Positions 28,570-50,910 of a stretch of 64,000 nucleotides of DNA are shown here, piece after piece. Below the pieces are notes generated by a model. It had not been told where the DNA came from. It searched no databases and worked only from the letters and a program-made list of their open reading frames with translations. The position numbers and the translations under genes were made by a program. Location: contig NC_012691.1 of the NCBI RefSeq assembly GCF_000023065.1, positions 1,222,501-1,286,500 of the forward strand, in the 5' to 3' direction. How positions within the stretch are numbered: position 1 is the first letter of the stretch; every line of letters begins with the position of its first letter. This stretch comes from Tolumonas auensis DSM 9187. GTDB lineage: Bacteria > Pseudomonadota > Gammaproteobacteria > Enterobacterales > Aeromonadaceae.

Positions 28570-28903
28570 TTTCTGGCTTCTCAATAAACATGGTTTGAGC
28601 TGCTCACGAATGAACGAAGAGCAGAATCGTAGTGTTAGCTGCTAGCCGTTAGAGTTTGACGAAAAGAATATCCAATTCTACTCAGACAGCACAGCGATTT
28701 ATCTTCAGATACGAATAGGCTCTGTTTGAAAAAATTCATAACGACAGGATATTTCAAAATATGGTTTTTCCAAGCTTACGATCCACACTCTTCTTCAGAA
28801 GCAATTAATCTTCAAACTGCACCATATCCATGATTTTGCACATCGCTCTGGTGTGCAAAGTTTGGTATAACGAAGTAAGTTCTGTTTGGAGACTCAGCAA
28901 CAT
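28570..28903. other. Intergenic region upstream of hsdR
   Basis: 334 bases without a gene between the divergent small protein and hsdR. AT-rich; a TTGAAA near 28726 with a TATTT element 18 bases on could be a promoter, but it is weak. Nothing else seen. Confidence 0.3.
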
Positions 28904-31900
28904 ATGGCGACTTCTTTAAATTTTGAATTGATCCGTGGTCACAATGAGAAGCTTGCGAACATTGGCATGTTGGCTGAGCAGATTTTATATCTCGATCCGG
29001 GAAGTGCGATCACTCGGCTAAGAGGGTTCGCGGAAGAAGTCACCAAAGAGATCTATGAAATCGACTGTTTGCCAAAACCGCCAACAGCCAATTTCATGGA
29101 TTTATTGAAAAATGATGCCTTTGTGAATATCACGGAAAGCAGACTACGCGATCTGCTTCATTTCTTACGTAAAGAAGGCAACGATACCGCACATGGTGGC
29201 GATGGTTCTTTAGATAAAGCGTTTGCTGCGTTAGGTGTTGCTCATCAGTTGGGCCAATATATGGCCATCAACTATTATGGTTTTTTCCAGTCTGATTTAT
29301 CTGCGCTTAGCTATCCACCTAAGCCGGGTAATTTAAACATTGCACAAAAAGAGCTCGAAAAATTACTGGAAGAGAACCAGGCTAAGCAAGAACAGCTCTC
29401 TCATGAGTTAGAAATGGAGCGTAAAGCTCGTCAGCATGCGGAGGCAACTGCTGAGAAACTGCAGGCTGCCAGAGTTCGAAGTCAGCAAACTGCAAACAGC
29501 TTGGCGTGGGATGAAAACCAAACCCGCAAGATGTTGATTGATACACAATTGGCAGCGGCAGGTTGGGATCTCTCAGACCCGGAACAAGTCGGCTTAGAAA
29601 TCGAAGTTCTTCATCAACCAACAACGTCTGGCATTGGCTATGCGGACTATGTTTTATGGGGCGACGATGGTAATCCGTTGGCCGTAATTGAAGCGAAACG
29701 CTCACGCGAAACTATGCAAAAGGGGCGGGAACAGGCGCGTTATTACGCGGAAGGGCTGGCTAAACAGTTTAATTGCCCGATGCCTATCGTTTTCTATACC
29801 AACGGCTATGAGATCTGCATTTGGGATACCAAACAATACAACGCATATCGGCAGGTATTTGGTTTTTACTCCAAAGACAGCCTGATGTTTTTGCATTACC
29901 AGCATCAGCATAAAGAAAAAAATCTGGAAGTGCTAAACCCTGATCCCTCCATTGCGGGCCGCCCATATCAGATTGAAGCAATTAAATCGGTGACAAACCG
30001 CTTCCAAAATCAGCGCAGACAAACGCTGATTGTTCAGGCGACAGGCACCGGCAAAACTCGTGTATCAATTGCGCTAGTGGCATTGCTGTTAAAAGCGCGC
30101 TGGGTGAAGCGTGTTCTCTTTCTATGTGATCGCAAAGAACTCCGTCGTCAGGCTGATGACGCGTTCAAACTCCATTTAGCGTCAGAGCCACGCTGTGTTG
30201 TGGGTGAATCAAATCGGATTGATCAGTCAGCTCGTATATTTGTGGCTACGTATCCCGGCATGATGAACCGGTTCTCTCAGTTGGATGTAGGTTTTTTTGA
30301 TCTCATCATTGCTGATGAATCGCACCGCAGTATCTACAACAAATACCGCGACATTTTCGATTACTTCGATGCTTTACAGGTGGGGCTTACCGCAACACCA
30401 GTGAAGTTTATTGCTCGTAACACCTTTGATCTTTTCGGCTGTGAAAACGGCGACCCGACCTTTAACTTTGATCTGGCGGAAGCAATTGCCCATGAACCGC
30501 GTTATCTGAATCCGTTCCGGGTTAAAGAGTTCACTACGGAATTCCTGCGCGATGGCATTCATTATAAAGATCTGACACCAGAACAGCGGGAACAGCTGGA
30601 AGAAGATCTGGGTGCAGAAGAAGCTCAGAACGTACACTTCAAAGGCAAAGAGATCGGCAAAAAGATCTTCAGTGCATCAACCGATTGCCAGATATTAGAA
30701 AACCTGATGACGAATGGCATCAAAGACGCCACTCAGTCGCTGGTGGGTAAAACTATTATTTTTGCCCAAAGTCAGGAACACGCGGAACATCTGGAATCGA
30801 TGTTTGTAAAACTCTACCCGCAATATGGCACCAAGGTGTGCAAGGTCATCCATAACAAGGTTGATCGACCTGAAGCGCGAATTGATGAATTCAAGAGTCC
30901 GGATAATCCATTCCGCATCGCGATTTCAGTCGATATGTTAGATACCGGAATTGATGTGCCGGAAGTGGTCAATCTTGTCTTCGCTCGTCCGGTGAAGTCA
31001 TGGGTGAAATTCTGGCAGATGATTGGCCGTGGCACTCGTTTATGTGAAAACTTGTTCGGGCCGGGTAAAGACAAAGAAGAGTTTTTAATTTTTGACCATT
31101 ACGGAAACTTTAAATATTTTGATGAGGAATATACCGAAGCGGAAGTGGTGGCGAGCCGTTCGCTATTGCAAACGGTATTTGAAGCACGCCTGACGTTGGC
31201 TGATACCGCCATGAAGAAAACGTCAGTTAAAGCGTTTGAGTTGGCGGTAGCGTTATTGAAAGCCGATATCTGTGATTTACCCGAAGATGCTATTGCTGTG
31301 CGTCGTGAATTGCGGCTGGTGAAATTGCTACAAGAAAGCGACATGCTTAGTAGCATGGAAGCTTCAACACGCCATTCATTAGAGAAAATCATCGCGCCGT
31401 TGATGGGTTCTCGTCCGTTGAAAGACATGGATGCCTCGTTATTTGATCGTTTGATCGCTGAATTGCAAACCGCGCATTTACTGGCCAGCAGTGAGCTAGA
31501 AAACCTGAAAGCGGAACTGATTGCTGCGGTGCAAAATCTGGCGGTGACTATCAATGACGTGCGCCTGAAAGCCGATGAAATGGAAGCAGTGCAAAGCTAC
31601 GATTACTGGGCCAATTTATCGGTAGCGCGATTAGAGCAAACCCGGCTTGAGTTGCGAGCTATCATGAAGTTCAAAAAACGTAGCGTTGGGCCGGGTTATA
31701 CCACACCAGCCACCTCGACATTTGATGATGGGGCGCAAATCAATGAGCGTATTGTGACCCTAAATCCGAACGATGCTTATGTCTATCGGAAACGCCTGAA
31801 AGAGATCCTGGATGCCATGCTGGAGAAAAACCCGGTGCTGCAGAAGATCTACAAAAATGTGCCGGTGACAGAAGATGAGCTGACCTCACTGACATCAACG

Positions 31901-32275
31901 GTGCTAACGCAATATCCGGGTGTTGACCCGCGAGTATTAAACGAGTTTTACGGTCGCTCACCGCAACAATTGAATATTACGTTGTGTCAGTTGGTCGGTT
32001 TAGATGCCAAAGAGGTGGATAAATGTTTCACTGACTTTTTGCAAAAAGCACAATTAACCTATCAGCAAACACAATATCTGAATCAGTTAAAAATCTTTAT
32101 CGGCCGTTATGGGCGTATTCAGTTGGCTGAATTATACGAAGGCCCGTTTAAACATATTTCGAACGGTGATGGCCTTGAGATTTTTGATGAAACGCATATT
32201 GAACAACTAACACAGCTCATGCAGCCGTTCCTGTTACCAAATAATCCAGTTATCAGTCCGTTGATGAAAGCCTGA
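28904..32275 (+). CDS. hsdR: Type I restriction enzyme HsdR subunit
   Basis: 1123 residues. An N-terminal DUF4145 region (about 1-120) and coiled coil are followed by the PD-(D/E)xK nuclease (IEVLHQPTTSGIGYADYVLW, VIEAKRS, about 235-270), then SF2 helicase motifs: QATGTGKTRVSIAL (Walker A), IIADESHRSIYNKY (DEAH-type), GLTATP, SVDMLDTGIDVPEV and QMIGRGTRLC. It translocates DNA and cleaves unmodified targets with HsdM and HsdS. The start was set at the ATG after GGAG; a TTG 18 bases upstream is the alternative. hsdM follows 86 bases later. Confidence 0.95.
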   Translation: MATSLNFELIRGHNEKLANIGMLAEQILYLDPGSAITRLRGFAEEVTKEIYEIDCLPKPPTANFMDLLKNDAFVNITESRLRDLLHFLRKEGNDTAHGGDGSLDKAFAALGVAHQLGQYMAINYYGFFQSDLSALSYPPKPGNLNIAQKELEKLLEENQAKQEQLSHELEMERKARQHAEATAEKLQAARVRSQQTANSLAWDENQTRKMLIDTQLAAAGWDLSDPEQVGLEIEVLHQPTTSGIGYADYVLWGDDGNPLAVIEAKRSRETMQKGREQARYYAEGLAKQFNCPMPIVFYTNGYEICIWDTKQYNAYRQVFGFYSKDSLMFLHYQHQHKEKNLEVLNPDPSIAGRPYQIEAIKSVTNRFQNQRRQTLIVQATGTGKTRVSIALVALLLKARWVKRVLFLCDRKELRRQADDAFKLHLASEPRCVVGESNRIDQSARIFVATYPGMMNRFSQLDVGFFDLIIADESHRSIYNKYRDIFDYFDALQVGLTATPVKFIARNTFDLFGCENGDPTFNFDLAEAIAHEPRYLNPFRVKEFTTEFLRDGIHYKDLTPEQREQLEEDLGAEEAQNVHFKGKEIGKKIFSASTDCQILENLMTNGIKDATQSLVGKTIIFAQSQEHAEHLESMFVKLYPQYGTKVCKVIHNKVDRPEARIDEFKSPDNPFRIAISVDMLDTGIDVPEVVNLVFARPVKSWVKFWQMIGRGTRLCENLFGPGKDKEEFLIFDHYGNFKYFDEEYTEAEVVASRSLLQTVFEARLTLADTAMKKTSVKAFELAVALLKADICDLPEDAIAVRRELRLVKLLQESDMLSSMEASTRHSLEKIIAPLMGSRPLKDMDASLFDRLIAELQTAHLLASSELENLKAELIAAVQNLAVTINDVRLKADEMEAVQSYDYWANLSVARLEQTRLELRAIMKFKKRSVGPGYTTPATSTFDDGAQINERIVTLNPNDAYVYRKRLKEILDAMLEKNPVLQKIYKNVPVTEDELTSLTSTVLTQYPGVDPRVLNEFYGRSPQQLNITLCQLVGLDAKEVDKCFTDFLQKAQLTYQQTQYLNQLKIFIGRYGRIQLAELYEGPFKHISNGDGLEIFDETHIEQLTQLMQPFLLPNNPVISPLMKA

Positions 32276-32361
32276 GCGAACGGAGTTTGTAAACTTACGA
32301 ATTTCGTTTTGCTCGGTATAATCGGCATCATTGCAGCAAGCACTTCATTTAAGAGAACACT

Positions 32362-33903
32362 ATGTTAACTGGCCAACTCCGTAACGATATCGACAGCCTG
32401 TGGGAAAAGTTCTGGACGGGTGGTGTCACCAATCCGCTGGTGGTCATCGAGCAAATCAGTTATCTGATGTTTTCGCGCATGCTGGATATTCAAGAAACAC
32501 AGGCTGAAAAAAAAGCACAACGCACAAACTGCCCATTCCAGCATCTGTTTCCTGATTCGCCGGAAGGCCAGTTATTGCGCTGGCAGAATTACAAAAACAT
32601 GTCGGGTAAAGAGTTATTACCGCACCTGCGTGACAAGGTGTTTCCGTATTTTGCGAATGTAGAATTAGCCGGTTCTGATATTGCACAGTTTATGGCTACC
32701 GCGGATTTACAGATCCGCAGTGAAGCGGTGATCACAGCGGCGGTGGAAATGGTCGATAAGCTGCCGCTTGATAAAAGCGATGTGAAAGGCGATATCTACG
32801 AATATCTACTGAGTAAGCTCTCGTCTGCAGGCATCAACGGTCAGTTCAGAACCCCGCGCCATATCATTGATATGATGATTGAAATGATCGACGTGCAACC
32901 AACAGAAACGGTCTGCGACCCTGCTTGTGGTACGGCAGGTTTCTTGGCTCGCACGATGGAATATTTAACCCGCAAATACTCCAGCCCTGAATCAATCTAT
33001 AAAGATGAAGATGGGAACCCGGTTTATTCGGGTGATTTATTGGCTCCATATTCTGAACACATTAATAAAGAGATGTTCTGGGGCTTAGATTTCGACAGCA
33101 CCATGCTGCGTGTTTCTGCGATGAATATGATGTTGCATGGTGTCAGTAATGCACATATCACCTATCAGGACAGCCTCAACAAATCTTTTGTCGGTAAACC
33201 GCAGGAAGAAAACTACTTCGATAAAATTCTGGCCAATCCACCGTTTAAAGGCAGCCTGGATGAAACCTCGGTGAATCCGTATGTGCTGAAAAAGGTGAAA
33301 ACCAAGAAAACAGAATTGCTGTTTGTGGCGCTGATTTTACGCATGCTGAAACTCGGTGGCCGCAGCGCCACTATCGTGCCTGATGGTGTGTTGTTTGGTA
33401 GCTCATCGGCGCATAAAGACCTACGCAAAGAGCTGATTGAAAATAACCAGCTCGAAGCCATGATCTCACTGCCCAGTGGCGTGTTTAAGCCGTATGCCGG
33501 TGTTTCAACTGGCATTCTGATTTTCACCAAAGGCGGCAGCACCGATCGCGTGTTTCTATATGACATGAAAGATGATGGCTATTCGCTCGATGATAAACGC
33601 ATTAAGAAGGATCATGATGGCGATATTCCTGATGTGATTGCTAAGTGGAAACGTTATACCGCGCTGTATGAGAAAAATGATGTTGCCACTATCGAAGCGG
33701 AGTTTTCTGACAAAACTAAGCCTGCATTTACGGTGTCAATCGATGAGCTGAAAGCCCAGAACTATGACTTGTCGCTAAACCGTTATAAAGAAGTGGTGTA
33801 TCAGGAAGAAAGCTACGAAAACCCAAAAGTGATTTTAGGCAAGCTGAAAGCGTTAGAGAATGAAATTCTGGCAGACCTGAATGCGCTGGAGGGGATGCTA
33901 TGA
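32362..33903 (+). CDS. hsdM: Type I DNA methyltransferase HsdM subunit
   Basis: 513 residues. HsdM_N helical domain at 1-140, then the N6-adenine methyltransferase domain: VCDPACGTAGFLAR (motif I, SAM binding) at about 188 and ILANPPFKGS (motif IV, NPPF) at about 290. It modifies host DNA at the site chosen by HsdS and completes the restriction complex. The stop overlaps the hsdS start (ATGA). Intact. Confidence 0.95.
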   Translation: MLTGQLRNDIDSLWEKFWTGGVTNPLVVIEQISYLMFSRMLDIQETQAEKKAQRTNCPFQHLFPDSPEGQLLRWQNYKNMSGKELLPHLRDKVFPYFANVELAGSDIAQFMATADLQIRSEAVITAAVEMVDKLPLDKSDVKGDIYEYLLSKLSSAGINGQFRTPRHIIDMMIEMIDVQPTETVCDPACGTAGFLARTMEYLTRKYSSPESIYKDEDGNPVYSGDLLAPYSEHINKEMFWGLDFDSTMLRVSAMNMMLHGVSNAHITYQDSLNKSFVGKPQEENYFDKILANPPFKGSLDETSVNPYVLKKVKTKKTELLFVALILRMLKLGGRSATIVPDGVLFGSSSAHKDLRKELIENNQLEAMISLPSGVFKPYAGVSTGILIFTKGGSTDRVFLYDMKDDGYSLDDKRIKKDHDGDIPDVIAKWKRYTALYEKNDVATIEAEFSDKTKPAFTVSIDELKAQNYDLSLNRYKEVVYQEESYENPKVILGKLKALENEILADLNALEGML

Positions 33904-35015
33904 GTTGGCCAATCGTAAAACTACATGATATTTGTAGACCAAGACAAAGGAAAACAATAGCAGCAAGTAGCTTGCTTGATTCTGGTTATTCTGTTTACGG
34001 CGCAAATGGGAAAATTGGATATTATTCTGAGTTCACTCATGAATTCCCTACATTGATGATCACTTGCCGAGGGGCAACCTGTGGTAATGTTCATATTTCA
34101 GAGCCGCGATCTTATATCAATGGCAACGCAATGGCTATTGATGATATCGATCCTCTCATTGTTGATCTCAAATATCTATATTACTTTTTTTTGAAGAGAG
34201 GATTTGAAGATGTGATTTCAGGTTCTGCACAACCTCAAATTACAGGCCAAGGTCTGACGAAAGTTGAAATCCCTCTTCCCCCATTAGAAGAGCAAAAACG
34301 CATTGCCGCGATTCTCGATAAAGCCGATGCCATTCGCCAAAAACGCCAGCAAGCCATTGAGTTGGCAGACGAATTTCTGCGTAGTGTGTTTTTGGATATG
34401 TTCGGCGACCCAGTGACGAATCTGAAGGGGTGGGAGGTTGAATCATTATCATCGCTAATTCATGTTCAGGGTGGATATGCATTTAAAAGTGCTGATTTCG
34501 GCACAGAAGGTATACCAGTAGTTAAAATTGGAAATGCAAACAAAAAAGGCTTTACTGCTGAAAGTATAGATTTTGTACAGCCAACACACCCTGAAAAACT
34601 AAAACAATATGAGCTGTTTTCCGGTGATTTATTAATGAGTTTGACTGGGACAGTCGGGAAAGATGACTATGGAAATATCACGGAAGTAACCGAAGAATAT
34701 AATAAGTATTATTTGAATCAACGTGTGGCAAAAATATCTATCAAATCCAAGAAAATAAATAAAGAGTATTTAAAATACTGTCTATCTCATCAGGCCATGA
34801 AAAATGAGTTAATTAAAAACAACCGAGGAGTCCGACAGGCTAATATTAGTAATTCTGATATATATCAGTTAGTGGTTCCTGTTCCTGAATTAAATGATCA
34901 AGATTTTTTTTGTGATATTGTGAAGAACATTGAAAAACAAAAAAACAGATTGGAAGGTTTTTATGTTGAATCAAATGAACTTTTTGCGTCTTTAAGTGCT
35001 GAGTTATTTTCATGA
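33900..35015 (+). CDS. hsdS: Type I specificity subunit HsdS
   Basis: 371 residues. Two target-recognition domains, the first beginning WPIVKLHDICRPRQRK, are separated by a conserved helical spacer (IPLPPLEEQKRIAAILDKAD...). The second half is more AT-rich than hsdM and hsdR, common for recombining TRDs. The C-terminal conserved helix is short. It sets the DNA site for methylation and cleavage. The recognition sequence cannot be read from protein sequence. Confidence 0.92.
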   Translation: MSWPIVKLHDICRPRQRKTIAASSLLDSGYSVYGANGKIGYYSEFTHEFPTLMITCRGATCGNVHISEPRSYINGNAMAIDDIDPLIVDLKYLYYFFLKRGFEDVISGSAQPQITGQGLTKVEIPLPPLEEQKRIAAILDKADAIRQKRQQAIELADEFLRSVFLDMFGDPVTNLKGWEVESLSSLIHVQGGYAFKSADFGTEGIPVVKIGNANKKGFTAESIDFVQPTHPEKLKQYELFSGDLLMSLTGTVGKDDYGNITEVTEEYNKYYLNQRVAKISIKSKKINKEYLKYCLSHQAMKNELIKNNRGVRQANISNSDIYQLVVPVPELNDQDFFCDIVKNIEKQKNRLEGFYVESNELFASLSAELFS

Positions 35016-37435: not shown

Positions 37436-38161
37436 CTAATAACTAATCCTTTTCGTCGGCACAAACCCATTCCGCCCTTGTAGCCAGCGACGAGCCTCTT
37501 CTACCGTAATCAGTACCTGAGCACCTTCTTTTATAAATGACAACGGATCAGTCTTACTGAATTGAGCATTACGAACACTACGAATATTACTCATGCCTGC
37601 CAGTAAAGCTAACTCAACGAGTGTTAAGTGCCGTCTATGTGTATCTGGATACCAACCGGCAGATAAAGGAACAAGGCCATTCCGTGCATCAGAATGAGGC
37701 AAGGGATCAGGATTATCTTCGGGGCTATAGTCCCCATCAAAATCCCATCGGTAGTTGAGTTTAATTCGAGCAATAAACTTATAAATTACTTTGATAGCTG
37801 CTTGGTTCAGCGGTGTTTCATCATATTCAAGTATCGGGTTTGCTGCGGTGATCCATTTTGCTAAATCGCCCAACATATCTGACAAGTGGTATTCAATAAC
37901 GTCTAATGGTTCGCCTAGTTCGGCAAACAGATACATTGGGTAGATATATTTCCACATCAATGAGTTTTCGAGCAATTTGATTTGCTTGGGCTCACCAAGA
38001 AAATCAATGACACCACAGCTCGTATCTGCCTCTCCGTGTCCGTGTGCGCTGTTACATAAGATCTCTAAAACAGAAAGCATTTCATATACAGAATGCTGTA
38101 ACTGATCTTCAGTAATAGGGAGCAGGTTAGCATTCTTCTTGATGGTTACACCAACTTGCAT
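37436..38161 (-). CDS. Unknown protein, possible regulator, divergent from the CARF cluster
   Basis: 241 residues from ATG 38161 with AGGAAA upstream. A helical N-terminal domain (about 10-130) precedes a C-terminal part with LVELALLAGMSNIRSVRNAQFSK and ITVEEARRWLQGRNGFVPTK, which resembles helix-turn-helix plus DNA-contacting helices of excisionase- or MerR-like proteins. Family not recognised. It is divergent from the 38302 gene across a 140-base region with repeated ATATGTA-type motifs, so regulation of that cluster is plausible. Confidence 0.55.
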   Translation of the reverse strand: MQVGVTIKKNANLLPITEDQLQHSVYEMLSVLEILCNSAHGHGEADTSCGVIDFLGEPKQIKLLENSLMWKYIYPMYLFAELGEPLDVIEYHLSDMLGDLAKWITAANPILEYDETPLNQAAIKVIYKFIARIKLNYRWDFDGDYSPEDNPDPLPHSDARNGLVPLSAGWYPDTHRRHLTLVELALLAGMSNIRSVRNAQFSKTDPLSFIKEGAQVLITVEEARRWLQGRNGFVPTKRISY

Positions 38162-38229
38162 TGAGTATTTCCTAGCTGAGTTCTTCTGCCGAAAATAATA
38201 GCACAAAATATGTAATCTAAAAGTGCATA

Positions 38230-38267
38230 TGTAGTTATTGACTACACATTGGCTTGTGTCCTATTGT
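38230..38267 (+). promoter_or_regulatory. Promoter with overlapping inverted repeat
   Basis: TTGACT (38238-38243) and TATTGT (38262-38267) are spaced 18 bases. The inverted repeat TGTAGT-TATTG-ACTACA (38230-38246) covers the -35, and related ATATGTA motifs occur to its left, so an operator for repression is likely. Confidence 0.5.
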
Positions 38268-38301
38268 AAATATGTACTTTATGAATACATATGGAGTTGC
38301 C

Positions 38302-39090
38302 ATGTTTAAGCATGAATCAGTGGCGAAAGCAGAAGTTAAAGGGGCGTTCCGCAAAGCAACCCAACGCTATGACGAGTTTTACAAAAAGCTCAAAACTGGA
38401 CTCGTGAAGTTCAACTCACGAAAAAATCATCTGCGTTATATTGAAGAATTAGCGCAGTGCCGTGGTGAATTCATGCTCGATCATCGGGTTTGTCACCATC
38501 ATTCAAGCTGGCATTTCCAGTCAGTGATGACATCGCTTGAGACAGAGTTTCATCATCTAAACAATATCGGCAATATGTGTTGTTTGGTGATTGATGGGTG
38601 GGATAGCCGGAAAATGATGAAAGGGGATATTAAAGGTCATCGTCGATTTTTAAGCCGGTTATTTTTACATGAGCATTTCCTGATCCGCATCGTGCAGCGA
38701 TTAGGGCTGACGGGTATCAAGAATATCGGCAAGGTGCTATTCCCGCTTTTTAGCTACATTTTGCGCGAGAATCTGTCATTTTGTTTATTAGGCAATGACG
38801 TACATTTCGTTATGCCCGGTTATGTGCTGGTGGCAGAAAAACTGCCCAATAATTACGGGCTCGTATTCAAAACCATCTTGATGCGTGAGCATTTTAGTGC
38901 AGCTCAGCAGGCGCACTATAACCCTGCCTATCAAGTGATGATTAACCAGCAAAGTGACTGTGTGATGTTGAACGGTGATACTGGCCATTTGGTCGCGATG
39001 CATTTCGATGAGCCCGGCATCAATACAACATTATTAAACGAATCATTCTGGATGCGCGACGTTTTATCAGAACTGGCACCGTGCGCTTAA
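38302..39090 (+). CDS. Unknown protein, first gene of the CARF cluster
   Basis: 262 residues from ATG 38302 (GGAG upstream; the frame is open earlier). The chain is soluble and rich in histidine: CHHHSSWHFQSVM, EFHHL, GHRRFLSRLFLHEHFLIR. These could be metal-binding, but no known motif is matched. I do not recognise the family. The UDG-like gene follows 25 bases later and the CARF gene three genes later, all same strand. Confidence 0.6.
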   Translation: MFKHESVAKAEVKGAFRKATQRYDEFYKKLKTGLVKFNSRKNHLRYIEELAQCRGEFMLDHRVCHHHSSWHFQSVMTSLETEFHHLNNIGNMCCLVIDGWDSRKMMKGDIKGHRRFLSRLFLHEHFLIRIVQRLGLTGIKNIGKVLFPLFSYILRENLSFCLLGNDVHFVMPGYVLVAEKLPNNYGLVFKTILMREHFSAAQQAHYNPAYQVMINQQSDCVMLNGDTGHLVAMHFDEPGINTTLLNESFWMRDVLSELAPCA

Positions 39091-39115
39091 TCGACCTATT
39101 TAGCAGGAGTTTTAT

Positions 39116-39889
39116 ATGTTATTCGAACAACACACCGCAAAAATGAAAAATTATCAGTCAACTTCAGACCATCAATTACCAGCCAATTTAAAAATGGCGG
39201 ATGACGGTAAGCTGTCTGTCTATTACGCACCATTTGATTACATCAACCATGATGCAAAGATAGTGATTTGCGGTATTACACCAGGCTATCAACAAGCCGA
39301 TTTAGCATTAGCAGAAGCACAAAGACAGCTGGTAGCAGGATGCTCGCAGGAAACAGCTAAGCAGAAGGCAAAAGAGACGGCCAGTTTTGGTGGGCCTATG
39401 CGTAGCAACCTGATTGCTTTACTTGATTATATTGGGGTTAATCAGTTACTAACACTTGAATCGTGTGAACAGCTTTTCTCATCGCATGCTCACTATGTGC
39501 ATTATACATCGGCGTTACGTTATCCGGTGTTTGTCGATGGTCAAAACTACAGCGGCACTCCGGCGATGTTGAGTCGTCCATTACTGAAACAGCAAATCGA
39601 TCAATATCTGGCAGACGAGGTAGCTTCATTACCTTCAGATTGTCTTTACATTCCACTAGGCCCAAAGGTATCGCAGGTATTCGACTATCTAGTCAAACAA
39701 GGCAAAGTCAAAGCAGAGCGTGTGCTAAATGGCTTACCGCATCCGTCTGGCGCTAATGCCGAACGGATCAGCTATTTCCTTGGCCGCAAAGCGAAAGAGA
39801 GTCTCTCTGCCAAAACCAATGCAGAGCAAATTGACTCAGTTCGCCAGCAGTTACTGAATCAGATGGCTCAGTTGATCCATACCGCATAA
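39116..39889 (+). CDS. Uracil-DNA glycosylase-superfamily-like protein
   Basis: 257 residues, AGGAG upstream. KIVICGITPGYQQAD resembles motif A (GxxPGxxQ) of the UDG superfamily and VLNGLPHPSGANAERI resembles motif B (HPS). Between them lie TSALRYPVF and DCLYIPLGPKVSQVFDYL with the usual LGxxA/V strand. Not a classic UDG: the catalytic Asp of family 1 is not evident. It may recognise modified bases or nucleotides. In a defence context it could act on phage DNA carrying modified bases; that is inference. Confidence 0.68.
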   Translation: MLFEQHTAKMKNYQSTSDHQLPANLKMADDGKLSVYYAPFDYINHDAKIVICGITPGYQQADLALAEAQRQLVAGCSQETAKQKAKETASFGGPMRSNLIALLDYIGVNQLLTLESCEQLFSSHAHYVHYTSALRYPVFVDGQNYSGTPAMLSRPLLKQQIDQYLADEVASLPSDCLYIPLGPKVSQVFDYLVKQGKVKAERVLNGLPHPSGANAERISYFLGRKAKESLSAKTNAEQIDSVRQQLLNQMAQLIHTA

Positions 39890-39930
39890 TCAAGCACACC
39901 ATATAGACGTTTAAACTAAGGGATATAACG

Positions 39931-40251
39931 ATGAGTTTTTTACAAATCGAATTAACGCAGGGCAATATCAACCAGGGGCATTTCTATTTACAAGATTGCC
40001 ATCATTTTTTTCCTGCAGCTTGCTTGGGCGGTAAGAACAAATCATTAGCAGGTGTTTCTGTATCTGTGATGTTCGATGGCACAGGTGAATCGGTGGAAAC
40101 CGATATTGATGCAACCAAACGTTTATTTCGGGGTGCTAGGGGACAGAGTAAACGCTTCCTCTCGTTTTTCAACTGCAAAGCAGGAGATACGATCTATATT
40201 CAGCAGGACGTTTCTGGAAATTATCGAGTTTCAACCAGAAAACCGCAGTGA
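39931..40251 (+). CDS. Small predicted beta-barrel protein, unknown
   Basis: 106 residues with AGGGA upstream. The text VSVMFDGTGESVETDID, FRGARGQSKRFLSFFNCKAGDTIYIQQDVSGNYRV looks like an all-beta barrel that could bind nucleic acid (the pattern recalls B3/EcoRII-N-like barrels, a weak comparison). It lies between the UDG-like and CARF genes. Confidence 0.55.
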   Translation: MSFLQIELTQGNINQGHFYLQDCHHFFPAACLGGKNKSLAGVSVSVMFDGTGESVETDIDATKRLFRGARGQSKRFLSFFNCKAGDTIYIQQDVSGNYRVSTRKPQ

Positions 40252-40343
40252 GTTTAACGAATTATCTCAAACAGACTTGATTTAACTAGGCGTCACCAGA
40301 GACTATGGACTCATCAGAAGTGGATGCAATGATTGAGACCGTA

Positions 40344-41471
40344 ATGAAAAATATTCTGGTGGCAGTGACTGGAGCCAGCCCACAGGTATTAACCGAGACG
40401 TTATATGCACTCTACACCCAAGGGAAAATCTTTCCCCAAGAGGTGTATGTCATTACCACACAAAATGCGAAAGACATCTTAGTCGAAGGGCTTTTTCACG
40501 ATGGTCACTGGCAACGCCTGATAACGGATTATCAGATGCCAGCCATCAAGTTTGATGAAAGTCATATCTGGCTGATTGCTGATGATGAGGGCAGGGTGCT
40601 TGACGATGCCAAAGCAGAAGCCGATCAGACCATCATGGCCGATTTCATTACCCGGAAAACAGCTGAGTTAACGGCAGATCCAGACTGTTCCGTTCATGCG
40701 TCTTTGGCTGGTGGACGTAAAACGATGGCATTTTACATGGGCTATGCCATGTCATTATATGGCAGAGAGCAAGATGCGTTAAGCCATGTGTTTGTGAATG
40801 ATGAGTTTGAGTTCGTTAAAGATTTTTATTATCCGACCCCATACGACAATGTGATCACTGGCAAAAAACCGGGAGACACGGTGAATACCCGTGATGCGAT
40901 TGTTACGCTGGCCGAAATTCCGTTTGTGCGTATGCGCCGCCATTTTGAGCAAGATTTACTGACACACATTCAAGATGCCTCGTTTTCTAAAACTGTTGCA
41001 CTCATGAATGCAGCGCAGCAGGCGGATCATCTGGATGTCGCCATTTCCTATAAAGCCCGAACTGTGAGTGTGCTAGGTGTCGATATCAAATTGTCAGCAA
41101 AACTACTGGCGCTTTATTTAATGATCGCTGAACAACCCAATCGCACCATGAAGCTGAGCTCCGCATTTCAAAGCAGCATCGAACCGACTAAGCAATATTT
41201 AGCGCATTTCTTTCGTTTGCAAGGTGATGTGCGTGTCTACAACACGTTTGGATTGGAAGATGAAGGTGACTGGCAACATCAGCGTTTTGAAAAGTTGAAA
41301 CCGCTGACACCGAAATTTATTCAGGAAGTATTGAGTCAGTTACACAAAAAGTTAGCGGAGCATCTCCCTGTAGAAGTGGTTGATAAGATCAAAGTGCATT
41401 CTGATGGCGCAAAGGGTGGGAGCACCTATTTCATTAATGGGCAGCTAATCGTGGCGCTAAACAAACCCTAA
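40344..41471 (+). CDS. CARF-domain protein of CRISPR-associated NE0113 family
   Basis: 375 residues from ATG 40344; a frame-compatible ATG at 40305 is less family-like. MKNILVAVTGASPQVLTETLYAL, the following VYVITTQNAK, and HASLAGGRKTMAFYMGYAMSLYGREQD with LSHVFVNDEFE and YPTP are hallmarks of the NE0113 family (TIGR02584/PF09623), a CARF fold that binds cyclic oligoadenylate and includes ring-nuclease-like members. The C-terminal about 170 residues are helical with no HEPN R-x4-6-H that I can see. No CRISPR array, Cas10 or other cas gene is visible anywhere in the window. Confidence 0.83.
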   Translation: MKNILVAVTGASPQVLTETLYALYTQGKIFPQEVYVITTQNAKDILVEGLFHDGHWQRLITDYQMPAIKFDESHIWLIADDEGRVLDDAKAEADQTIMADFITRKTAELTADPDCSVHASLAGGRKTMAFYMGYAMSLYGREQDALSHVFVNDEFEFVKDFYYPTPYDNVITGKKPGDTVNTRDAIVTLAEIPFVRMRRHFEQDLLTHIQDASFSKTVALMNAAQQADHLDVAISYKARTVSVLGVDIKLSAKLLALYLMIAEQPNRTMKLSSAFQSSIEPTKQYLAHFFRLQGDVRVYNTFGLEDEGDWQHQRFEKLKPLTPKFIQEVLSQLHKKLAEHLPVEVVDKIKVHSDGAKGGSTYFINGQLIVALNKP

Positions 41472-41585
41472 GCATCGCTGTTTTTGCTTGCTATTTCCGT
41501 GATTTGCAAGCTTATGAAAAATTACTATGTCGCAGAGCGAGTATCTTTTGCTAAAGAAAGATACTTATCAAGGCGGCAAAAACAC

Positions 41586-42200
41586 ATGATGTTGATCATT
41601 GAAAAAGACAGCGTTACCGATATCGTCGGATTAAAAAGACATTACAGCATTTGGACTGATGGCAGCATGGTGCCTGTTAATTTGTTCGAAAAAGTAGAAA
41701 TGGTGATGTTGATTAGCCCCAATTTTGAGCAGTTGGAGCAAATTAAAAAATCAAACATGACCGCCTGTAATGTCTATGTTGCGTTAACTGCGTCAGCTGA
41801 TCAGTTAGTTAGATTCAATGCCGAATGCAGTGGCTTCCGCGTGATGACTTATGATGTGGGCGATGAAAATAACCTGATCAAAGCCATGCTGTCAGTCTTC
41901 AACGCCAAGCGAAGTTTTGGCGCTGACTTGGCGGATATCAGAAAGCTTTTCAGCAAATCTAGCAATATTCATTACAAGCACGTAAGCAGCCAAATAACGG
42001 CTGAATCTATTCAAAACATTCAGCTTGCTGGTAATGCGACCTCTATTGTATCTACTGTCTTTTATGACGCTGCATTTTCGTTTGAGATACTCGAGAACGT
42101 ATTCACATGGCTGAAAGATCGATTTTCCACTGTCGATATTGTCGCTTCCTATTCCAGTGATGCAGCTGCATCGCTCGGCTTATTCTTAGCGTTGGATTAA
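41586..42200 (+). CDS. Unknown family A protein (paralogue of 27057)
   Basis: 204 residues from ATG 41586 (AGGCGG upstream). It parallels the 27057 protein along its whole length, with the shared RSFGADLADIRK block at about residue 110 and the SLGLFLALD end. It lies 114 bases after the CARF gene on the same strand. See the 27057 entry for the tubulin-C-terminal-like reading. Two copies 14.5 kb apart in one island suggest that the family is a specific component of the cargo. Confidence 0.68.
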   Translation: MMLIIEKDSVTDIVGLKRHYSIWTDGSMVPVNLFEKVEMVMLISPNFEQLEQIKKSNMTACNVYVALTASADQLVRFNAECSGFRVMTYDVGDENNLIKAMLSVFNAKRSFGADLADIRKLFSKSSNIHYKHVSSQITAESIQNIQLAGNATSIVSTVFYDAAFSFEILENVFTWLKDRFSTVDIVASYSSDAAASLGLFLALD

Positions 42201-42386
42201 CACGCACTCTTTTTATGTGGTTACTGATGTTTATCGCAGTTGCCAAAATGAAAACATTCATTTTGGTTCATATGGCGCTGAGACTCATTTAATTGTAAGC
42301 TTACGAAAAGTAATGTTTAGGCTACATGGGTGATATTAGGTGTAAGCCAATTCCTCCGATTAATCATCAGCATAAAACTGCTAAGG

Positions 42387-42599
42387 ATGACACTCGTGCC
42401 ACTACCACCATCACCCGTTGTACTTGAGTGCCCCGCTTGCCATTGGACGAAGCTCGTTGCCCCGCAAAGTGATTGTCTAACAGATCGATCTTACTTGATT
42501 GATCAGTGTCCCCAATGTGGGAACGGAGAGATTAGGCGGCGCAAGCCTGACCTAGTAGAAACAATTAATTGTAAATTTAAAGATGTATTTAACCGTTAG
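42387..42599 (+). CDS. Small zinc-ribbon protein
   Basis: 70 residues from ATG 42387. Two CxxC pairs (CPACHW and CPQCGN) separated by 28 residues form a zinc ribbon; the tail is KPDLVETINCKFKDVF. The upstream frame extends to 42330 without a ribosome site. Small zinc ribbons of this kind accompany island cargo genes; function unknown. Confidence 0.6.
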   Translation: MTLVPLPPSPVVLECPACHWTKLVAPQSDCLTDRSYLIDQCPQCGNGEIRRRKPDLVETINCKFKDVFNR

Positions 42600-42885
42600 T
42601 TTAGCTATCGGTATCGTAGTATAGCTTATCCATCAGGTCGTATTTAGTTTTAATGAGAGACTTATAAATTACTGATATTAGATTAAAGGTTGTTAAAAAA
42701 ATATGAGTCTCTTGGGTTTATGGAGGTTACAAAATAAATCTAACAATCTATTGGTTTCGTGTGGAATTGTTTAATGTTTGATTGTAAACGTGTGTAACGT
42801 TATGTTTTAACTGGTTTTGTAGTTGGCTGAAATAGCATTGATGAATAATAGCCCTTGAATAACAACAATATGATAAGGAATGTTA

Positions 42886-45384
42886 ATGAATAATAATTTG
42901 AATTACCCTTATTTGCTGGCTGTCCATGCCTTGTGTGTCGATGGTCAATTGCACAAAAATGAACTTCAATTTTTACAGTCGCTAGCAAAAACAATTGGCA
43001 TTGAACCAGCTACAGAAGCAGCAGCAGAATTAATCTTAGCTCAAACAGATCAGCATCTGAATCAGGATATCATTCTACAGCGAATCGTTCCTGAACAACG
43101 ATTATTGGCTCTTTCGTTAGTTGCGTTAGCTACGCATTTTGATGGTGTGTTAGACCGAACAGAACAAAGATTGCTGGAGCAATTAAGACAGCGATGGAAT
43201 ATCAGCAATGATGTTTTTGAACAAATACAGAGTCAGGCCTGCAAGGAGGCTCAACGCTTAATTTCAGAACTAAAAACAACTAGCCGTAACGAAGTATCGA
43301 CTGGTGCCAAAATGCTAAGTGGCTTGGAAACTGTGCTAGGCAAAACTGTCGTTGATCGTGTAGTAGGTGTTTTAGGTTCCGAATCAATGAAGGAGCGTAT
43401 TGAGGATTACCGCATTGAAGCGCTGTTATCAGGCCCTAAATATGACAAGGCCATCAGTGAGTGTCGGGATGTGGGTTTACGCGATATCGAAATAGCAGAT
43501 ACGTGCTTGCATGCAACAGTCCATGCATTGAAAGAAATAGAGTCAAAGCTAGATGCTCAGATTGCAGAAATTCAGTTACAAATTGGGGATAAACCCGCAC
43601 AAGCTGCCCGTGAGGCTCTTCGTACAATGAGAGAGGATCGTGCAGAAATTATTAGGGTAATAAACCAAGAGCTACAGGAATTTCAGGAGCTTCAGATCAA
43701 GAAACGCCGCGCCATGAACTATTACACGATTGCATTCATGGGCCGCAGCAAGGCTGGTAAAAGTACCTTACATGCAGTAGTTACTGGTGGTGGCTGGGAT
43801 CAGATCGGTGTTGGCCGTCAGAATACTACACGCTTAAATCGAGTTTATGAATGGAACAACATTCGTATTATTGATACACCAGGTATAGCTACGCCCGGTG
43901 GTGAGGAACTAGAATCAGTGGCTGAAAGCATAATTGATGAAGCAGATCTAATCTGTTTTGTGGTCACTAATAACAATCAGCAAACTTCTGAATTCGAATT
44001 CCTTAAGCAGTTAAGACGTAAGGGGAAACCACTGCTTATGCTATTGAATGTAAAAGAAGACCTGAGTCATCCAGTACGTCTTAAACGTTTTTTAGAGAAG
44101 CCGGAGCAAGCATTTTCGGAGGACAAAGATCGCCTTGGTGGTCATATCGACAGAATTCGTCGTGATGCAGCAGATCACTATGGTACATCTAGTTTTCCAA
44201 TCATTCCAGTGCAACTTTTGGCTGCGCAGATTGCACAACAACAGCCTGAGCACGAACATGCAAAAACCCTAATGAAATCCAGCCGACTTCAGCACTTTTT
44301 GGATTCCGTTAGGTTATCACTGCTTGATGAAGGCCTGTTACGGCGTAGCCAAAATCTGCTGGGCAGTACAGTGACTGATATTGAGCGTCCTTTTCACTAT
44401 CTAAACGCTCGTTCAGAATTCTATATTAAATTTTCTAATGAAATTTCCGAGAGAGCCAAAGATAGCGTCCAACGGCTTAAAAAGGCACAGGATGATCACG
44501 CTCGCCAGCTTGAACAAGATCTTCGTGGCATATTTGCAGCTTTGCAACAGGAAGTTCCTGACTTTGCGGAGGATCACTGGGATGACTCGGAGAGTAGTCT
44601 GAATGATGCGTGGTCAGATGCAATTCGTTACTTTGGTATGGAGAAAAAAATTAATGATGCACAAGAGAATTCACTAATAGCATTTTCTAATGATATGAAG
44701 GAATTGCTTGACGAAGTAAATCAAGAAATAAATCTACAGAGAAAACTCTCATATTCGTCTAACAAATTGGATGAGCAAGATTCTAGTGTTTGGTTTAGCA
44801 AGACTTTGCAATGGGGCAGCGGTCTGGCTGGGCTTGGTATCGCCGTAGTTGCACTAGCAAATTGGTGGAATCCTGCGGGATGGGTGTGGGGTGCAGTGGC
44901 AGCAGTTGGTTTTATTGCATCTCTTTTTGAATCTAAGGCATCTAAGCGCCGAAAGGCTGTTGCTAAAATATCTAGCGCACTAGAGTCTCAAATTGAGAAA
45001 CAGGAAAAACAGATCGTGGAGGATGCTTTGATGCATTTCAGAGAGCAATGCTTCCTAGGCGCAGCCGAAGTGAAAGAGTATTTTCGGCTATCCAGCGATG
45101 GTCTAAATTTTGTCGGTAAAACACTTGGAAATGGTGCCGAAAAACTGCAAGAACAAAGCCGTATTCTGAATACGCATTTTGCCGCACGAATTATTGATTT
45201 TGCTGGCCATAAACCATCTGAATCCTCCGCACAGGCATTACGGAATCAAATTAACGAAGTTCGCCGTAAGGTAGGAGAGAGCATCAACATTGAAGTGTCC
45301 TCTAAAATGAGAGTGCCAAAAAATATGAATATTATCGAGTCTGTGATTCAAGAAAAAATCACCCTTCAAAAAGCCGGAGTTTAG
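42886..45384 (+). CDS. TerB-like domain + dynamin-like GTPase
   Basis: 832 residues from ATG 42886, spaced seven bases from AAGGA (ATG 42880 is too close). Residues 1-120 resemble a TerB-like helical domain (LLAVHALCVDGQLHKNELQF, LATHFDGVLDRTEQ). Then a GTPase: FMGRSKAGKSTLHAVV (G1), IIDTPGIATPG (G3), LLNVKED (G4). A helical middle follows and a hydrophobic patch about 645-680 (LAGLGIAVVALANWW), then a coiled-coil end. The layout is that of bacterial dynamin-like proteins, which remodel membranes. The partner gene begins two bases after the stop. Confidence 0.8.
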   Translation: MNNNLNYPYLLAVHALCVDGQLHKNELQFLQSLAKTIGIEPATEAAAELILAQTDQHLNQDIILQRIVPEQRLLALSLVALATHFDGVLDRTEQRLLEQLRQRWNISNDVFEQIQSQACKEAQRLISELKTTSRNEVSTGAKMLSGLETVLGKTVVDRVVGVLGSESMKERIEDYRIEALLSGPKYDKAISECRDVGLRDIEIADTCLHATVHALKEIESKLDAQIAEIQLQIGDKPAQAAREALRTMREDRAEIIRVINQELQEFQELQIKKRRAMNYYTIAFMGRSKAGKSTLHAVVTGGGWDQIGVGRQNTTRLNRVYEWNNIRIIDTPGIATPGGEELESVAESIIDEADLICFVVTNNNQQTSEFEFLKQLRRKGKPLLMLLNVKEDLSHPVRLKRFLEKPEQAFSEDKDRLGGHIDRIRRDAADHYGTSSFPIIPVQLLAAQIAQQQPEHEHAKTLMKSSRLQHFLDSVRLSLLDEGLLRRSQNLLGSTVTDIERPFHYLNARSEFYIKFSNEISERAKDSVQRLKKAQDDHARQLEQDLRGIFAALQQEVPDFAEDHWDDSESSLNDAWSDAIRYFGMEKKINDAQENSLIAFSNDMKELLDEVNQEINLQRKLSYSSNKLDEQDSSVWFSKTLQWGSGLAGLGIAVVALANWWNPAGWVWGAVAAVGFIASLFESKASKRRKAVAKISSALESQIEKQEKQIVEDALMHFREQCFLGAAEVKEYFRLSSDGLNFVGKTLGNGAEKLQEQSRILNTHFAARIIDFAGHKPSESSAQALRNQINEVRRKVGESINIEVSSKMRVPKNMNIIESVIQEKITLQKAGV

Positions 45385-45386
45385 TA

Positions 45387-47054
45387 ATGACGATTACAGC
45401 GGCCGTTCACGGCCAGAAATTTGAAAGCATCCTTGCTCGTATGGGCGAATTACTAGCTGCTCCAGTGCTTAAAGAAAGATGTATTGCTACTAAGCTAGAG
45501 CAAGATTTGAAGGTGTTCCGTGAGCGTGGATTTTTAACAATTGCGTTTGTCGGGGAATACAGCGCAGGAAAAAGCTCTCTCATTTCTGCTCTCACAGGCA
45601 GAAGAGATCTGGCAATCTCGGCAGATATCGCAACAGACCAGTGTCGAGAATATGAATGGAATGGTGTCAAATTGATCGACACTCCTGGTTTATGGACAGA
45701 GCGAAAAGACCATGATGCACGCACTTACGAAGCCATCGCAAGAGCAGATCTTTTAGTATATTGCCTAACCTACAGTTTGTTTGACACTACTACCTTAGCT
45801 AATTTCAAAGAACTAGCGTTTGAACGTAATTATCAAACAAAAATGCTGTTGCTTGTAAATAAGATGTCCGCTGAAGCTGGCGATGTCGAGCAGCGTATTG
45901 AACACTACAATGAATCATTAAGGCTATCTTTTGAGCCACACGATTTATCGCAATTTCCAATTGCATTTTGTGATGCAAGAGATCAACTTGACGGTGAGGA
46001 CGAGCATGATGAGGAGCTGAAAGCTCTTAGTCGCTTCGATAAACTAACCGCGTTACTCAACAAATTTATCGATGCCAAAGGTGCAATGGCTCGCCTAGAT
46101 ACACCGTTGAGGATCGTGCTGTCATCCTTGGACGAAGTAACGGAATTTTGCACACGCGATGATGGACGTGATGATCAACAAGTTCACTTATTGAAAAAAT
46201 TGACCGGTGTAGTAACAAGACAGAGACGAGCGCTTTCAATAAAGGTTGAAGGTGAAATATCTAACCTAGCTTACAGTATTCAGAAAATAGGTAGTAGCTT
46301 CGCTAAAGATATCGGTATCAATCCTGATCTTCAGTATGAACTAGAGCAATCACAATATAAAATCGAGGCATTGTGTCAACAATCGTCAGATTTGCTTCAG
46401 AAAGAAGTTGAAGCAGCTGTTGAATCACTACGTGAGGAAATGGGGGAAGAGTTTGAAAGCCCTTTAATGGCTGACTTTATTGGCTCTGCAAATACTCATA
46501 CCGATACCAGCGAGCCTCAGACTACAGATCTATCAGGTGGTCTCAAAAAGAACGTCGCAATGTTTAAAAAAATTGCTGATACCTTAGGAGTGAGCACAGG
46601 GAAAAGTTTGGTAAGTGCTTCTCAAGCCAGTAAATCTGGGCTAGCTACAGGAATTCGGACAATTGGGAAATGGGTTGGCTTCAAATTCAAACCTTGGCAG
46701 GCTGCTAACTGGACAAAAAATTTGACCAATGCAGTACCATATATTGGTGTCGCATTAAGCGTATTATCCTTGGCTTCTGATGTTGCATCCGAAGTAGAGG
46801 AAGCAAATAATGAAGCGAAACTCAGAGAAGCCAAAAGGGATTTACTTAACCACTTCAATAACGTTGCAGAGTCTGTGAGTATGGAGATTCGCAAGGCTAG
46901 TACTGACGCTATGGATGGGATCTACGGCCAGGTAGAAGCTGTATTGTCAGAAATGAAAGCGACCTATGAAAATGAACTGGGAGCAAACAACGCGACTATT
47001 CGGAATGTTGCGATTTTGCGAGCTGATTGTGAGGACTTATTGAAATTGATTTGA
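45387..47054 (+). CDS. Second dynamin-like GTPase of a tandem pair
   Basis: 555 residues. GEYSAGKSSLISALTG (G1), KLIDTPGLW (G3) and LLLVNKMSAE (G4) define the GTPase; helices follow, with a hydrophobic stretch at about 448-470 (VPYIGVALSVLSLASDV) as a membrane paddle. Shorter than its neighbour, as in other bacterial tandem dynamin pairs where a long and short protein act together. No TerB-like domain. A terminator follows 100 bases after. A role in envelope protection, for example against phage lysis, is possible but unproved. Confidence 0.8.
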   Translation: MTITAAVHGQKFESILARMGELLAAPVLKERCIATKLEQDLKVFRERGFLTIAFVGEYSAGKSSLISALTGRRDLAISADIATDQCREYEWNGVKLIDTPGLWTERKDHDARTYEAIARADLLVYCLTYSLFDTTTLANFKELAFERNYQTKMLLLVNKMSAEAGDVEQRIEHYNESLRLSFEPHDLSQFPIAFCDARDQLDGEDEHDEELKALSRFDKLTALLNKFIDAKGAMARLDTPLRIVLSSLDEVTEFCTRDDGRDDQQVHLLKKLTGVVTRQRRALSIKVEGEISNLAYSIQKIGSSFAKDIGINPDLQYELEQSQYKIEALCQQSSDLLQKEVEAAVESLREEMGEEFESPLMADFIGSANTHTDTSEPQTTDLSGGLKKNVAMFKKIADTLGVSTGKSLVSASQASKSGLATGIRTIGKWVGFKFKPWQAANWTKNLTNAVPYIGVALSVLSLASDVASEVEEANNEAKLREAKRDLLNHFNNVAESVSMEIRKASTDAMDGIYGQVEAVLSEMKATYENELGANNATIRNVAILRADCEDLLKLI

Positions 47055-47741: not shown

Positions 47742-48380
47742 TTATCTATTACTGCACCCAAATGACCGATATTGTGGATTTATATTTTTGCTTTTAGCTT
47801 TTGCCATATAACTAATTCGATATATAAATCTATCCAGATTTAAATTAAAATCTGGTTTGTTGACATCGAGGTAATAGCAAGGGTTTTCAGGGAGGTGCAC
47901 TAACTCTCTAGCTAAATCAATATGCAATCCTAATGCACTACTCCAAGCAGACATAATTATGTAAGCCAAATTGTTTATGCCAGTGTATTGCCCTAAAAAT
48001 GCATACGTATCCTTGTTCAATAAGATAAATGTGTGATAGTGATCTTTATGTTCATTGTTTTGCTCTTTGACCCAAGCATATCTTAGTGTACAAGAATGAA
48101 CTCTAGTACCTGTACGTTTCCTAGCGTTAATATCAGAAATAATTTTTGCTTCTAAAGAAGAAAAAAATCTAGATATTACTGACGAGTCAGTTTTAGCAAA
48201 TGATGTTGGCATGTCATGCTCCATTAGAGGAGCATGACACCCTAATCCAGGAAGTCTTAGATCAATCCTGATTGCAAATGTTCTAGGGTGTTCATTTACC
48301 CCTTTATTTATTACATCCATCATTCTTGATAAGTATGATGGAGTTAACTCTCCATGATTGAGGTTGATGTTCTTATTCAT
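47742..48380 (-). CDS. YagK/YfjJ-type (inovirus Gp2-like) replication protein
   Basis: 212 residues from ATG 48380 (AAGG upstream; frame open to 48551). The chain TFAIRIDLRLPG, ISRFFSSLEAKI, and the RYAWVKEQNNEHKDHYHTFILLN stretch with its HYH motif (HUH-like) are characteristic of YagK/YfjJ domain proteins found in P4-like satellites and E. coli CP4 islands, thought to act in replication initiation. It follows a DUF3987 gene and belongs to the integrase module. AT-rich. Confidence 0.75.
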   Translation of the reverse strand: MNKNINLNHGELTPSYLSRMMDVINKGVNEHPRTFAIRIDLRLPGLGCHAPLMEHDMPTSFAKTDSSVISRFFSSLEAKIISDINARKRTGTRVHSCTLRYAWVKEQNNEHKDHYHTFILLNKDTYAFLGQYTGINNLAYIIMSAWSSALGLHIDLARELVHLPENPCYYLDVNKPDFNLNLDRFIYRISYMAKAKSKNINPQYRSFGCSNR

Positions 48381-48565
48381 ATGAATAACCTTATTATCAG
48401 AGATATACATATTTAAATACTCTGTACTGAGTAATAGATACACATATATATTACCAATCCGACAAATAAATAATGCCATACTCAGGCTAAATCTATTATT
48501 TTCAAGGGAAAACTCAATAAAAAATAGTTGAAATAAATTCCACTTAAACAAAAATAACTCTGGAG

Positions 48566-50002: not shown

Positions 50003-50017
50003 TTTTGTTACCTCAGG

Positions 50018-50254
50018 TTAATTAAATAAATTTTTGTTTCGAATTGAGTGTAAATAGTCTTCAACATCATAAACACTCCATACATGTCTATTGCCTAGTT
50101 TATTTGGTTTAACTAAGCCAGAGGGTAACCGATCTTTACAAATCCATTTTCGAATGGTTTGTGGTTTGGTGTTTATTATTTCTGCCAAGTCTTTTATGTA
50201 TATTAAATACTGACCATTGGTTATATAGGGTTGCAAAATAGAAATGTTATTCAT
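50018..50254 (-). CDS. AlpA-like HTH / excisionase-type regulator
   Basis: 78 residues with a winged MerR-like HTH: YIKDLAEIINTKPQTIRKWICKDRLPSG then RHVWSVYDVEDYL. Strong ribosome site AGGAGATGG. AlpA-like proteins activate the integrase gene or act in excision in P4-type islands. The ATG overlaps the stop of the preceding gene (ATGA), so translation is coupled. Confidence 0.82.
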   Translation of the reverse strand: MNNISILQPYITNGQYLIYIKDLAEIINTKPQTIRKWICKDRLPSGLVKPNKLGNRHVWSVYDVEDYLHSIRNKNLFN

Positions 50255-50673
50255 TTGGCCATCTCCTCTGCTGAGGTTACGGCAAATAAACTGGGCTGTA
50301 GAGGAAATATGGAGAATAGAATGAAAATTAAATCATAGAAGGGATGAAATGAACAATGATTAACTCTGTCTCCGGGACCATCGCTATCGGAGGATTTCGA
50401 ACCACTCACATCTTTTTTTACAGTTTTCCGGCAGGAACTAGTTCTGCAGTTAGAACCGCTAATATGTAAAATCCGTTTACATATTGTTTTATATGTTAAT
50501 GATAACACTTTCGATCTAAAACGATTAATTATATTACGGCATTTTGCCTGTGCTTCATTCAGTATGCTGTTTACTTCTTGCATACTTAGATTTCCAGCAG
50601 ATACATGCTCCTTCTGAGTTGTTGGCTTTGCTGCTGATAAAATATTATCAGCACACAATTCAAGTTCAGTCAT
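50251..50673 (-). CDS. Small protein upstream of the AlpA-like gene, unknown
   Basis: 140 residues. The start has a strong AAGGAAGTGAT site and the stop is coupled with the next gene, so translation is credible. The first half is helical (MQEVNSILNEAQAKCRNIINRFRS); the rest is Ser/Cys rich then hydrophobic and ends LFAVTSAEEMAK, similar in position and end to Icd-like/Ash-type small proteins of P4-like phage satellites, though I cannot confirm this. Confidence 0.5.
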   Translation of the reverse strand: MTELELCADNILSAAKPTTQKEHVSAGNLSMQEVNSILNEAQAKCRNIINRFRSKVLSLTYKTICKRILHISGSNCRTSSCRKTVKKDVSGSKSSDSDGPGDRVNHCSFHPFYDLIFILFSIFPLQPSLFAVTSAEEMAK

Positions 50674-50910
50674 ATCACTTCCTTCTGAGGGTAGTTAACA
50701 GTATTTACAGAAAGCATAGTTAATACTCAATTAAAAAGTCAAGAGGAAAAATGCTAGGTAATCATATATACATCTAAATCAACAGTACGTGTATTTAGTA
50801 CAAGGTTATAACTTGTTAAATAATGCTCCAAATGGGATTATTTTACTGAGAAGTAAATGAATCCATTCCTGACTGAATCTCAAAATATTAAATTCATTAA
50901 TATCATTAGG

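Follow-up and report, generated by a model that had tools for sequence, protein, structure and literature searches.

A CARF–winged-helix protein encoded outside CRISPR in Tolumonas auensis, possibly a regulator of neighbouring defence systems

CARF domains usually sense alarm molecules produced by CRISPR immunity, and a CARF gene with no CRISPR locus around it raises the question of what its product senses and which system it serves. Such a gene lies at 40344..41471 (+) of the stretch analysed here (the window: 64,000 nucleotides, positions 1,222,501-1,286,500 of the complete 3,471,292-base genome of Tolumonas auensis DSM 9187). Between the type I restriction-modification genes hsdR, hsdM and hsdS (28886..35015, +; PADLOC REase_I, MTase_I and Specificity_I) and an adjacent defence module, a pair of LeoBC-like and LeoA-like dynamin-family GTPase genes (42880..47054, +; PADLOC LeoBC 1.6e-101, LeoA 3.1e-99), one finds seven genes: R37, A38, UDG39, B39, the CARF gene, X41 and a zinc-ribbon ORF. 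The initial annotation placed these ORFs correctly and took them together as a possible signalling-based defence system or viral countermeasure. A tyrosine integrase (50911-52215) and adjoining element-like genes occupy 47742-52215, suggesting that the defence genes sit on an integrated mobile island. The window also holds a RadC gene (18122-18619), and an Rfam scan of it returned a single match, a tRNA.

The assignment of the protein to the NE0113 family of CARF proteins is secure. The longest ORF opens at 40305, and from a conserved ATG the gene encodes 375 aa, which match PF09623 at 1.9e-43 (149 bits, against a curated cut-off of 23), TIGR02584 at 1.3e-65 (221 bits, cut-off 80.65) and the PADLOC CARF5 model at 5e-126; the CARF groups were reportedly defined by Makarova in 2020. 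The AlphaFold model has a pLDDT of 90, and fold comparison of the N-terminal part (residues 1-220, the CARF domain) gives the CARF domain of Cad1 and the Crn1 ring nucleases as the nearest structures. The last 155 residues, modelled separately (pLDDT 89.5), have as their top structural matches nearly all response regulators with OmpR-type DNA-binding domains, at E values of 0.03 or above. No sequence profile in Pfam or the PDB matches this C-terminus convincingly, and so the assignment of residues 221-376 as an OmpR-type winged helix, as which they model, rests on modelling. Pfam scans gave no WYL match to the protein. The NCBI name Csm6 is unsuitable because no nuclease domain was found in it: none of 11 members matched HEPN, and the C-terminal part models as a winged helix instead.

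The putative ligand pocket can be compared with that of the protein's stand-alone relatives described below, here called orphan CARFs. In the alignment, the pocket residues are identical in 34 of 34 sampled orphans, and their pocket motifs are common to the sampled CRISPR-linked CARF sequences too. K127 of the window protein, likewise conserved in all 34, is the counterpart of K106 of Cad1, and in the Thermus enzyme TaqCad1, which belongs to the same CARF5 group, the K106A mutation abolishes degradation of cA4 and impairs its binding (PMC12669630).

What might supply a ligand for this pocket? Searched again, the window yielded neither a repeat array nor a match to the cas queries, in agreement with the earlier reading that no Cas10, other cas gene or array lies within the 64 kb. 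That absence is true of the window but not of the host, which carries a complete type I-F system (Cas1f, Cas3f and Csy1-4 at C1:1489371-1497769, with an array beyond at L178, the part read of which has at least 52 repeats) some 200 kb away. Type I-F CRISPR is not known to signal through cyclic oligoadenylate. A type III locus elsewhere in the genome, which the initial annotation had named as evidence that would tell against it, was sought with the Cas10 models Cmr2 and Csm1, and neither matched the host genome. No SMODS nucleotidyltransferase match was found there, nor any known nucleotide synthase, whether near the CARF gene or elsewhere in the genome. Two familiar roles were set aside: that of a type III CRISPR accessory protein, there being no Cas10 in locus or genome and the host CRISPR being of type I-F, and that of a CBASS component, CBASS requiring a CD-NTase. 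Given a host with neither Cas10 nor SMODS synthase, and a CRISPR system of a type not known to signal, the ligand would be one of three things: something else altogether, a signal from incoming elements, or the product of an unrecognised synthase. There is precedent for the first of these. The regulator RtcR responds to RNA ends. It also carries a divergent CARF domain (PMC4012209), and so offers an example of a CARF protein with a non-CRISPR ligand.

The window protein is not alone in lacking CRISPR company. A scan of GTDB genomes recovered 79 loci with CARF relatives, and in 46 of these (L073-L118), all with full-length proteins, flanks of up to 10 kb on each side yielded neither a cas gene nor an array to a detector that combined cas proteins from a handful of plasmids with a plain search for repeats, and which very divergent cas genes could escape. 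In 27 of the 33 loci L119-L151 the same detector did pick up an array or cas genes of type III-B, and since this sister group gave matches, it works for the kind of cas gene to be expected. All 46 loci fall into a single clade together with the CARF of the window and two copies from plasmids (SH-aLRT 100), on a stem that measures 0.92 changes per column, with its sister group in type III-B CRISPR loci; the tree comes from a quick search with SH-aLRT as its measure of support, and some CRISPR-linked rows sit on long branches where their placement is unsure. The E. coli genomes searched gave no match. A CARF protein does, then, exist outside CRISPR, as the initial annotation held.

Might these genes simply be functionless leftovers of type III CRISPR, passively carried in gene-rich islands? 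The CRISPR-linked sister group, the rapid turnover of neighbours and some apparently broken copies (L026 and matches in genomes G110 and G260) would fit such an origin. We nevertheless regard it as very improbable: dozens of species hold orphan CARFs that are intact and highly conserved, their pocket is invariant, no cas remnant was found near any copy, and they show a positional preference, just ahead of hsdR. The CARF protein without CRISPR probably serves in defence.

The company that the orphans keep bears directly on which system that might be. Within flanks of up to 10 kb on each side, with genes called as simple ORFs, recognised defence systems occur in 38 of the 46 loci and fall into seven kinds or more, each name resting on a single HMM match. 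Type I restriction is the most frequent (19 of 46), followed by Zorya and a PP2C/kinase/vWA set with an MkoA-like helicase (7 each), Druantia III (6), McrBC (5), LeoA-like GTPases (4) and IetA (2). In one Photobacterium locus (L106:10004-16583) an IetA-like gene pair lies between two different orphan CARF genes. Directly upstream of the CARF gene in seven loci (L089, L091, L093, L095, L100, L106 and L118, at about 8.2-9.9 kb) is a gene for a protein of ~530 aa, the N-terminal part of which, where tested, matches PADLOC PDC-M16A, as does the N-terminus of HsdR.

With type I restriction the arrangement is more regular. The hsdR gene comes next after the CARF gene, on the same strand and with a gap of 15-119 bp, in 15 of 45 loci, as against 1 of 578 other genes, although the 15 are not independent, 10 of them falling in one subclade of 11. 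These loci span several HsdR groups, pairs of HsdR proteins often being less than 30% identical. In the subclade, a conserved DNA unit starts ~10-270 bp before the CARF gene and continues into the restriction genes. For this subclade one may entertain the stronger proposal that the CARF protein belongs to the type I restriction operon as a genuine component, gating restriction or its expression in response to a nucleotide, cyclic or with a 2',3'-phosphate, that would come from a not-yet-recognised synthase or from nucleic acid damage; we hold this to be doubtful, though a real possibility.

Outside the hsdR-linked subclade the CARF gene seems to travel alone. The CARF proteins of L083, L085, L087 and L088 are 83-92% identical, and these loci have no nearest genes in common on either side; at the DNA level they resemble one another from the CARF start codon, or a point no more than ~20 bp from it, to near the stop. 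Between the window and its nearest relatives, too, DNA similarity is confined to the gene. No operator or motif shared by the upstream regions of the CARF genes was found, inverted repeats there scored little above chance (mean best score 7.0, against 6.0 for shuffled sequence), and the Aliivibrio copies had no conserved DNA upstream of the CARF gene.

The main rival to a regulatory role is that of a ring nuclease, in which a CARF dimer would cleave cyclic oligoadenylate, shielding the island or the host from the toxicity of incoming type III CRISPR or CBASS systems, and the winged helix would act in dimerisation only. Its attraction is clear from the protein itself, the nearest structures of which are ring nucleases and the pocket of which retains, invariant in the aligned orphans, the equivalent of the lysine that TaqCad1 needs to degrade cA4. 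One Shewanella genome (G395), moreover, has an orphan CARF (L073) together with a CARF of a CRISPR III-B locus (L126). This pairing also makes it a natural test case for cross-talk. Against such a role, carriers seldom have a source of the substrate: Cmr2 was above cut-off in 1 of the 46 relatives' genomes, with weak matches in two more (the search for Csm1-type Cas10 covered the host and nine relatives), and SMODS synthases occur in 4 of 46. Nor would it explain the place directly ahead of hsdR or the conserved C-terminal domain. We consider a ring nuclease unlikely on balance, but well worth keeping in view. A viral countermeasure, as first suggested, found no backing: a search of 50,697 phage records and of IMG/VR brought up no CARF relative, and the best fold match to a viral protein was weak.

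We return to the proposal that the seven genes form one unit. By that account CARF, UDG39, R37, A38, B39 and X41 make up a single signalling system with an unknown synthase, and A38, UDG39, B39, CARF and X41 are indeed co-directional with short gaps. The arrangement is not kept, however, in any of the 46 close CARF relatives. Close relatives from the order-level search and from plasmids, 45-70% identical across nearly the whole protein, include none beside A38, UDG39, B39, X41 or R37. Among all the loci there is one exception, L107, in which a UDG relative adjoins the CARF gene. Even there the UDG gene is convergent to the CARF gene, and the C-terminal part of its product diverges from the family. 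The UDG family itself recurs with R37 and without CARF, and none of these proteins has a synthase-like match. That the seven-gene cluster is a single system is highly improbable, and the other genes mostly belong to unrelated neighbouring modules. What survives of the idea of signalling-based defence is a CARF protein outside CRISPR, probably in defence; the seven-gene system does not.

Some of these neighbours are simply rare. X41 (41484..42200, +; the "family A" protein, with a start probably near 41586) has a paralogue of 37% identity at 27057-27677, upstream of hsdR, and hardly any further relatives, with none in plasmids. For the small, very rare B39 (39931..40251, +) relatives were found only on Bradyrhizobium plasmids, one of them (L163:5899-6327) within a WYL/helicase/ATPase/DUF1156 gene cluster that is probably another defence system. 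The zinc ribbon and small barrel of the initial annotation do have matches, but only below threshold.

For the remaining three genes the most plausible interpretation is a module for defence by base excision, independent of CARF. UDG39 (39116..39889, +) had been called UDG-like, a call that is weak for the window protein (E 0.005, below cut-off) and firm for its family, in which 18 of 18 members match PF03167, at best with 1.1e-6; by sequence, the family has no significant match in the PDB. It extends to 35 plasmid records and 11 IMG/VR contigs. SMUG/MUG-type enzymes carry an N at the motif that in UDG39 reads GITPG, a point of difference. The regulator-like R37 (37436..38206, −) is the recurrent partner: an R37-like gene lies within 600 bp of the UDG gene in 11 of 30 UDG-family loci, as judged by a profile built partly from those 11, five of which were new. 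The His-rich A38 (38254..39090, +) is rare and absent from the plasmids searched, and a marginal match in L165, antisense to a longer housekeeping-like ORF, looks spurious. Its homologue (5e-28) lies in L164:5038-7795, where a different UDG-superfamily gene is followed by an R37-like gene, the A38 homologue and a small ORF. L164 holds the glycosylase module in a second form and is the one place elsewhere with all three gene kinds together. These gene kinds recur without CARF, and CARF recurs without them.

The reading that we prefer, tentatively and at a little short of an even chance, is of a ligand-responsive CARF regulator serving neighbouring defence systems. It builds on the clade, on the lack of detectable cas genes nearby, on the diversity of neighbours, on the hsdR linkage and on pocket conservation. 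The window protein would be a stand-alone member of a CARF–winged-helix clade that left type III CRISPR, and the members of which may now serve whichever defence system adjoins them. Most likely its CARF domain has kept the ability to bind a nucleotide that is made during infection and is similar or related to cyclic oligoadenylate; binding would alter the C-terminal winged helix, and this in turn would control the expression or activity of the neighbours, type I restriction foremost and also Zorya, Druantia, McrBC and the LeoA-like GTPases. R37, A38 and the UDG gene, as an independent Brig-like module, would stand beside it by chance. The ligand, the regulation and the control of partners are what we infer. 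We do not put the reading higher because no operator is visible upstream of the CARF gene; the lack of a shared operator, of a known ligand source in the host and in most relatives, and of strong E values for the C-terminal fold all count against it. A transcriptional role for NE0113 was predicted as early as 2014 (PMC4012209).

Were it true, nucleotide signalling, so far the province of CRISPR, CBASS and a few others, would also regulate restriction-modification and several further defence systems, and the question of which molecule a CARF protein senses in genomes with no known synthase becomes directly testable. For the orphan clade, the name "CRISPR-associated ring nuclease Csm6" that automatic annotation assigns is misleading.

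Parts of the locus have counterparts among known systems. The NE0113/TIGR02584/CARF5 proteins of type III-B loci belong to the same HMM family as the orphans and have the same pocket motifs and a similar length, but the orphans form a separate clade, with no detectable cas genes or arrays. With Cad1 and Crn1 the orphans have in common the CARF fold and the GG-K motif, in which lies the lysine that TaqCad1 requires; they differ in having neither a deaminase domain nor a CRISPR locus, in carrying an OmpR-like winged helix, and in an activity that is only putative. UDG39 resembles the anti-phage DNA glycosylases Brig1 and Brig3-BapA, by description and not by sequence, as a UDG-superfamily protein with partner genes near defence genes (PMC11078745, PMC13160076), and R37 and A38 would be only putative counterparts of BapA. 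There is a parallel in organisation with BrxR and CapW. Regulators of the BrxR family, which is unrelated, with a WYL domain and a winged helix, stand beside many unrelated defence systems, type I restriction included (PMC9122601). Like them, the orphan CARF combines a probable ligand-binding domain with a winged helix among diverse defence systems; here CARF replaces WYL, no operator was found upstream, and regulation, which has been shown for BrxR, is putative.
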